In this document: positions 37,693 to 37,886 of the stretch, in pieces
How the letters are laid out: every line of letters starts with the position of its first letter
How positions within the stretch are numbered: the first letter of the stretch is position 1
NCBI RefSeq assembly: GCF_002240055.1
Contig: NZ_CP016753.1
Coordinates: forward strand, 806,001-870,000
Reading direction: 5' to 3'
Length of the DNA stretch: 64,000 nucleotides
Origin: Leptotrichia sp. oral taxon 498
GTDB taxonomy: Bacteria; Fusobacteriota; Fusobacteriia; Fusobacteriales; Leptotrichiaceae
The notes under the pieces: model-generated
The model's database searches: none
Seen by the model: the letters and a program-made list of their open reading frames with translations, nothing else
Told to the model about the DNA's origin: nothing
Position numbers and translations under genes: made by a program

Positions 37693-37771
37693 AGCTATCA
37701 AACTTCTTAGAAAATTTTTGAATAATTTTAAAGATTTTAGAACCCTGTGACTTTAGTCGTGGGAGGTTCAG
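37693..37771 (+). ncRNA. IStron right end: guide-RNA scaffold and intron 3' end
   Basis: The terminal hairpin GAACC/GGTTC (37740-37744, 37765-37769) encloses GACT/AGTC, and the element ends at G37771. This piece would be both the 3' splice site of the intron and the scaffold of the TnpB guide RNA, with the following exon bases acting as guide. These roles are known for IStrons in clostridia and are inferred here. Confidence 0.7.
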
Positions 37772-37886
37772 TGACTGGAAAAGTGTTGTGATATTCATTA
37801 TATCTGTGGCACTTGTGTTAAAATGGAAAATGAGTCCGATATTGCTGACAGTAATTGCGGCGATTGCAGGAATTATAATTTATTAA
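37772..37886 (+). CDS. chrA: Chromate transporter, 3' exon
   Basis: The first base T completes the split Ile codon left by the 5' exon, then 37 codons follow to TAA at 37884-37886: DWKSVV, a hydrophobic helix, KWKMSPIL and a final hydrophobic helix. SPIL followed by a C-terminal helix is the usual end of CHR domains, so the piece belongs to the gene interrupted at 35888. It has no start codon or ribosome site of its own and needs splicing (or precise excision) to be expressed. Confidence 0.88.

Follow-up and report, generated by a model that had tools for sequence, protein, structure and literature searches.

Group A IStrons in described systems

Group A IStrons, which join an IS200/IS605 TnpB gene to a group IA2 intron, were described in 2014 with insertions at TTTAT and TCAG ends, and the described set includes an IStron of Leptotrichia buccalis (PMC4227781). 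They insert downstream of TTGAT, ATTAT or TTTAT without target duplication, and the IA2 subclass features P7.1, P7.2, P9.1 and P9.2 are given for the family (PMC4227781). In ISDra2, about 16 flank bases follow the scaffold of the right-end RNA (reRNA), and cutting of the empty allele with repair from the occupied copy has been proposed for IS605 TnpB (PMC8612924). Here we describe an element that interrupts chrA, a chromate transporter gene, in a 64-kb window (positions 806,001 to 870,000 of NZ_CP016753.1, a 2.15 Mb chromosome) of Leptotrichia sp. oral taxon 498. Judged from its ends and gene content, it belongs to the group A IStrons, a kind already known, and was inserted after TTTAT. We give a probability of roughly 0.85 to the reading that explains the locus best as a whole, namely a group A IStron whose TnpB would take its guide from chrA, with splicing as the alternative. 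This reading draws on sequence: the ends, the motif, the in-frame repair, the sense bias of insertions, the conservation of TnpB, stem covariation and the agreement between the internal guide sequence (IGS) of the intron and the target.

Insertion of the element in chrA

35458..35888, + strand: chrA 5' exon (chromate transporter); Pfam PF02417, 158 bits; frame open across the empty site in relatives
35884..35888, + strand: TTTAT, transposition target, presumed target-adjacent motif (TAM) and 5' exon strand of the intron's P1; 61/63 copies, empty sites, and a minimum free energy (MFE) fold that pairs U35888 with G35946
35889..37771, + strand: IStron of group A, 1883 bp, made up of a group IA2 intron and an IS200/IS605 TnpB gene; its ends follow from the empty chrA sites; fits the group A definition of PMC4227781
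37772..37886, + strand: chrA 3' exon; the spliced frame stops at TAA 37886

The chrA gene starts at 35458, is interrupted after TTTAT at 35888 and resumes its frame at 37772, and the element in between holds a single gene, tnpB (36448-37692). The right end, ...GGGAGGTTCAG, finishes at 37771 with the 3' terminus TCAG, as in group A IStrons, and the chrA flank begins TGACTGGAAAAGTG from 37772. Once joined, the flanks form one open frame, ...DKNNFIDWKSVVIF...IIIY followed by a stop. The same joined flanks, searched against 13 genomes of the genus, recovered uninterrupted chrA in ten relatives. Alignment with these empty sites set T35889 as the first and G37771 as the last base of the element, without target duplication and with one of the listed group A pentamers upstream. 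The empty site reads TTTAT followed directly by TGACTGGAAAAGTG, with the junction exactly between TTTAT and TGACTGG; a one-base ambiguity of the ends was removed, because 7 of the 10 empty sites have A instead of T right after the pentamer.

Related copies in the genus

The genus contains about 65 related copies, with up to 32 matches in one genome. TTTAT stood directly before the left end in 61 of the 63 copies with a recognisable left end, so its placement is not due to chance; the two exceptions were one copy with TTTAT plus an extra T and one with a mis-placed left end. Unlike the constant 5' TTTAT, the 3' flank differed between copies. The original prediction had put the right end at 37771, the guide start right after it and the element after TTTAT, and it was borne out on these points, with 37772 as the guide start and TTTAT as the fixed 5' motif, by the alignment with ten relatives and by the genus copies.

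We also recorded several features of these copies in their own right. The first base 3' of the element was never C (0 of 63 distinct sites) and A was enriched, while C follows 25 of the 172 sense-strand TTTAT sites in genes of the window (14.5%; P = 5e-5); neither P10 pairing nor a known rule explains this avoidance. A 45-base mini-element (L027, G000:C1:1317920-1317964) lies after TTTAT with its left end joined straight to its right end, without gene or intron core. Derivatives of about 312 bases that lack tnpB and start GAAATAG instead of TAAATAG were present in two genomes (L026, G000:C1:1643869-1644180; L123 in G012). Finally, identical insertion sites were filled in different species (L073, L096 and L109; L066 and L082), by shared descent or repeated homing.

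The intron and its pairing with the target motif

35895..35935, + strand: left-end hairpin (GUGCAA...UUGCAC), inside P1; MFE fold; conserved in copies
35946..35950, + strand: GUAAG, internal guide sequence, which pairs with UUUAU of the exon; present also in two further TTTAT IStrons, with GUCAG in its place in two TTGAT ones
35951..36341, + strand: group I intron catalytic core, ending with GAACGA (36336-36341); near-invariant in copies; GAACGA is the boundary motif of PMC4227781

In the MFE fold of the 5' region, exon UUAU pairs with GUAA and U35888 lies opposite G35946, which gives the P1 of a group I intron, with its U.G at the 5' splice site and its internal guide sequence. The insertion sequence component lies downstream of the GAACGA motif (36336), as in group A, where this motif or one like it follows P9.2. 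We found GUAAG also in IStrons of other phyla at TTTAT, from Selenomonadaceae (L030) and Paenibacillus larvae (L224), and GUCAG in two IStrons at TTGAT, one in a relative within the genus, where TnpB is of another type (L238), and one from a Clostridioides phage (L260). The IGS thus differs in step with the landing motif, and the intron tracks the transposition target. The L238 element (G001) sits in a lipoyl-domain acyltransferase-like gene; it has the same intron type, and its TnpB retains the zinc finger.

The orientation of insertions was counted for 62 of them after their flanks had been joined, with an open frame taken as at least 80 codons. In this set 53 insertions were sense and none antisense, and 46 of the 53 have a stop among the first three host-frame codons read into the element. 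Sense bias and early stops are expected of a functioning intron and not of a plain insertion sequence; splicing therefore appears to be under selection. Self-splicing of the intron is predicted, with the 53:0 bias as an indirect sign.

The TnpB protein

36448..37692, + strand: tnpB, RNA-guided endonuclease, 414 aa; NF040570 206 bits (cut-off 100); D195, E289, E332, E333 and D380 invariant in 50 intact copies

The tnpB product matches PF01385, PF07282 and NCBIfam NF040570 (RNA-guided endonuclease TnpB), and corresponds to the ORF B of the IS200/IS605 family that is characteristic of group A IStrons. The gene was intact in 50 of the 57 full-length genus copies and broken in 7, and its dN/dS of about 0.18 across the genus copies indicates purifying selection. 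The RuvC D-E-D residues comprise D195, D380 and either of two candidate glutamates. E289, at the canonical RuvC-II position, is replaced by V or K in two wider-family proteins; E332 is invariant in the wider family, and the site of the first lost zinc-finger cysteine comes seven residues after it. Alternative catalytic glutamates are known in Fanzors and some TnpBs (PMC10711439). A phmmer search returned no solved-structure relative of TnpB. An AlphaFold2 model built from four sequences had a pLDDT of 63, with an unreliable last fifth and an active site that could not be read; this low-confidence model was nearest to Cas12f and TnpB structures.

Another possibility is that this copy is a dead remnant, incapable of both splicing and cutting. 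Within the genus 7/57 copies are broken, and among the loci examined in its own genome none carries a TnpA with matching ends. Its tnpB, ends and P1 are nonetheless intact and splicing restores the chrA frame exactly, so that we give this idea very little credence. As to a source of transposase, two TnpA-bearing elements at TTTAT in G009 (L166 and L171) have left ends that closely resemble the IStron's, and the own genome holds a short derivative of about 240 bases (L029, 484200-484900). TnpA elements of the L166/L171 type could supply transposase in trans; Tourasse 2014 deemed such supply unlikely (PMC4227781). The 20 abundant IS605-type copies of the own genome are not an obvious source, their right ends being different.

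Presumed guide and predicted target

37772..37791, + strand: presumed guide, taken from the start of the chrA 3' exon (16-20 nt); lies behind the right end, like the guide of ISDra2; 20/20 match at the empty site of G006

The empty chrA of one relative (G006) had TTTAT followed by all 20 guide bases, which agrees with the earlier proposal that the guide would match the empty chrA site. One further relative had an empty chrA with TTTAT and 19 of the 20 guide bases, and another had all 20 preceded by TTCAT. In the own genome we looked for TTTAT joined to 14 guide bases, allowing 3 mismatches at most. The occupied site, with TTCAG before it and 2 mismatches, was the sole match at 2 or fewer; another three sites had 3 mismatches. 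From this search and the empty sites of relatives, the predicted target is therefore the empty chrA allele. By analogy with ISDra2 (PMC8612924), TnpB is expected to cleave at TTTAT and to use a guide of 16-20 nt.

As a speculation, a full-length intron RNA circle would put the element's own left end (35889-35908 after 37771) in the guide position. TnpB loaded with such a guide could target the element itself, as the left end follows TTTAT in nearly all copies.

Predicted guide-RNA scaffold

37624..37771, + strand: omegaRNA (reRNA) scaffold, about 148 nt, overlapping the tnpB end; covarying stem; length as in ISDra2
37740..37769, + strand: terminal right-end hairpin; folds of diverse relatives and copies

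The scaffold was compared across eight elements, with and without intron, whose TnpB proteins are 62-70% identical where aligned. A stem inside the tnpB end (37629-37633/37638-37642) showed pairs in 38 of 40 cells, with compensatory changes of several types. Swaps of its 3' arm between species equalled this pairing in 1 of 10,000 trials (P = 0.0001). The covarying stem supports a scaffold of about 148 nt that ends at 37771, next to the flank, as in RNA-guided TnpB systems. Synonymous diversity in 20-codon windows showed no clear dip at the tnpB end, so the overlap of scaffold and gene rests on cross-species covariation.

Alternatively, TTTAT could be the target of a Y1 transposase only, with TnpB conserved for another role (e.g. 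regulation of excision) and a flank that is not a guide. A constant motif is what TnpA alone would produce, the left and right ends bear palindromes, and TnpA-bearing elements with a similar left end lie likewise at TTTAT. We nevertheless regard this as very unlikely, given a dN/dS of 0.18 with every catalytic residue retained, the covarying stem inside the end of the tnpB open reading frame (ORF), and a homologous TnpB of the same arrangement that is a guided nuclease (PMC8612924).

Two predicted folds of the right end and an internal promoter candidate

36340..36390, + strand: 5' arm of a long-range stem with the right end; 47 pairs, -44 kcal/mol, 0/300 shuffles as good
37714..37769, + strand: right-end segment that can adopt either of two mutually exclusive folds, as local hairpins or in the long-range stem with 36340-36390; 39 bases common to both folds
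36412..36420, + strand: extended -10 like TGGTATAAT, upstream of tnpB; conserved in copies; consensus match only

The long-range stem ends two bases before the 3' splice site and its 5' arm comes directly after the intron core. Its complementarity is retained in four divergent IStrons despite different sequences; in the Selenomonadaceae element, right-end GGTTC has become GGCTC and the 5' arm carries GCCTC to match, though the local hairpin is weakened. Within the genus, pair counts favour neither fold. The guide scaffold and the splicing fold are predicted to be mutually exclusive, because 39 right-end bases are used in both, and the conflict between splicing and guide probably arises before splicing, when the right end takes up one of two folds that are incompatible. 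We tentatively propose, at somewhat less than even odds, that the right end is a bistable RNA that forms either the scaffold hairpins or a stem that closes the ORF in a loop and brings the 3' splice site to the core. Folding would then decide whether the element repairs the host gene or arms TnpB, binding of TnpB would tip the choice, and the IGS would be kept matched to the target and presumed TAM.

Splicing and guide production might instead hardly compete, if most guide RNA were transcribed from a promoter inside the element, ahead of tnpB, and lacked the 5' half of the intron. A strong ribosome site and a conserved extended -10 lie between the intron core and tnpB, with TTGACA upstream in many copies, and transcripts begun inside the element could include scaffold and guide while being impossible to splice. 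TTGACA stands, however, 21 bases before the -10 and was lost in this copy by a small deletion within the 36390-36420 region, promoter matches are no evidence of function, and the right-end folds remain exclusive on a read-through transcript. We thus hold this to be rather unlikely, if clearly the strongest of the rivals. The claim that splicing destroys the guide precursor would accordingly stand for transcripts through chrA, from which the 3' exon is removed, and fail for any from the candidate internal promoter, which cannot splice. The original prediction as a whole is supported and is the right default.

Proposed mechanism and points against it

RNA left unspliced past 37771 would give TnpB the scaffold of about 148 nt (37624-37771) with a guide from the chrA 3' exon. 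The complex of TnpB and RNA would cut an empty chrA allele between TTTAT and TGACTGG..., and the element would be regained by repair from the occupied copy. At the occupied locus TTCAG, not TTTAT, precedes the guide sequence, which would spare it. Splicing of the chrA transcript would join ...TTTAT to TGACTGG..., restore the protein and part the scaffold from the guide. The choice would likely fall at the folding step, where 37714-37769 either pair locally, for the scaffold, or pair with 36340-36390, for splicing. We infer cleavage and its dependence on the TAM, the length of the guide, homing, and the fold switch.

Some points weigh against this picture. TTTAT is also the transposase target, and its constancy alone is no proof that TnpB needs it; the catalytic glutamate could be E289 or E332. 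The long-range stem is weak in L238, where 11 of 200 shuffles were as good, and within the genus it shows no double changes, being too conserved for covariation to be informative there. Finally, no Rfam group I model matched the intron up to E=1; this is likelier a limit of the library than a sign of a non-intron, because the core matches elements of C. difficile and Enterococcus at the DNA level.

Comparison with known systems

The element shares with LbISt1 and the group A IStrons (PMC4227781; type CdISt1) a T-rich pentamer target (TTTAT is listed), the 3' TCAG, an IA2 intron, the GAACGA boundary motif, and an IS200/IS605 ORF B with no full-length ORF A. It measures 1883 bp, against 1760 for LbISt1, which was compared by its published description, and its long-range stem is AU-rich and far exceeds the 6-10 bp described for group A (PMC4227781). 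Fusobacterium FnISt1 and FnISt2 are likewise fusobacterial group A IStrons without full-length ORF A, whereas the FnISt1-related intron sits at TTGAT (PMC4227781) and the present one at TTTAT. In common with the TnpB-reRNA system of ISDra2 (PMC8612924) are a right-end RNA of about 150 nt overlapping the tnpB end, a flank-derived 3' guide and a pentamer target that equals the TAM, all of them predicted from sequence here. ISDra2 has no intron, lies at TTGAT and has been shown to be active, in contrast to the present element, known from sequence alone, with its intron, TTTAT and lost zinc-finger cysteines.

One pentamer has three readers at this locus, as transposase target, presumed TnpB TAM and part of intron P1, and the two TTGAT lineages with a matching intron change show how the intron is kept compatible with the transposon. 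The genus would be a good natural system for tests of TnpB homing and of the trade-off between splicing and guide: it holds more than 60 copies, nearly each with a guide of its own, and for some of them sister species have the empty allele.

In the IS607-type IStron of Clostridium botulinum (Zedaveinyte 2024, Science eadm8189), the intron and the TnpB guide reportedly have a common 3' end, and splicing and guide RNA are reportedly antagonistic. That IStron is said to be of group B, with a serine TnpA and a GG target, while the element described here belongs to group A with a Y1 target type. The TAM and guide logic dates from 2021 and the conflict between intron and guide from 2024, so the idea is not new. 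The finding fits known rules; what merits testing is the agreement of IGS and target and the pair of folds at the right end.
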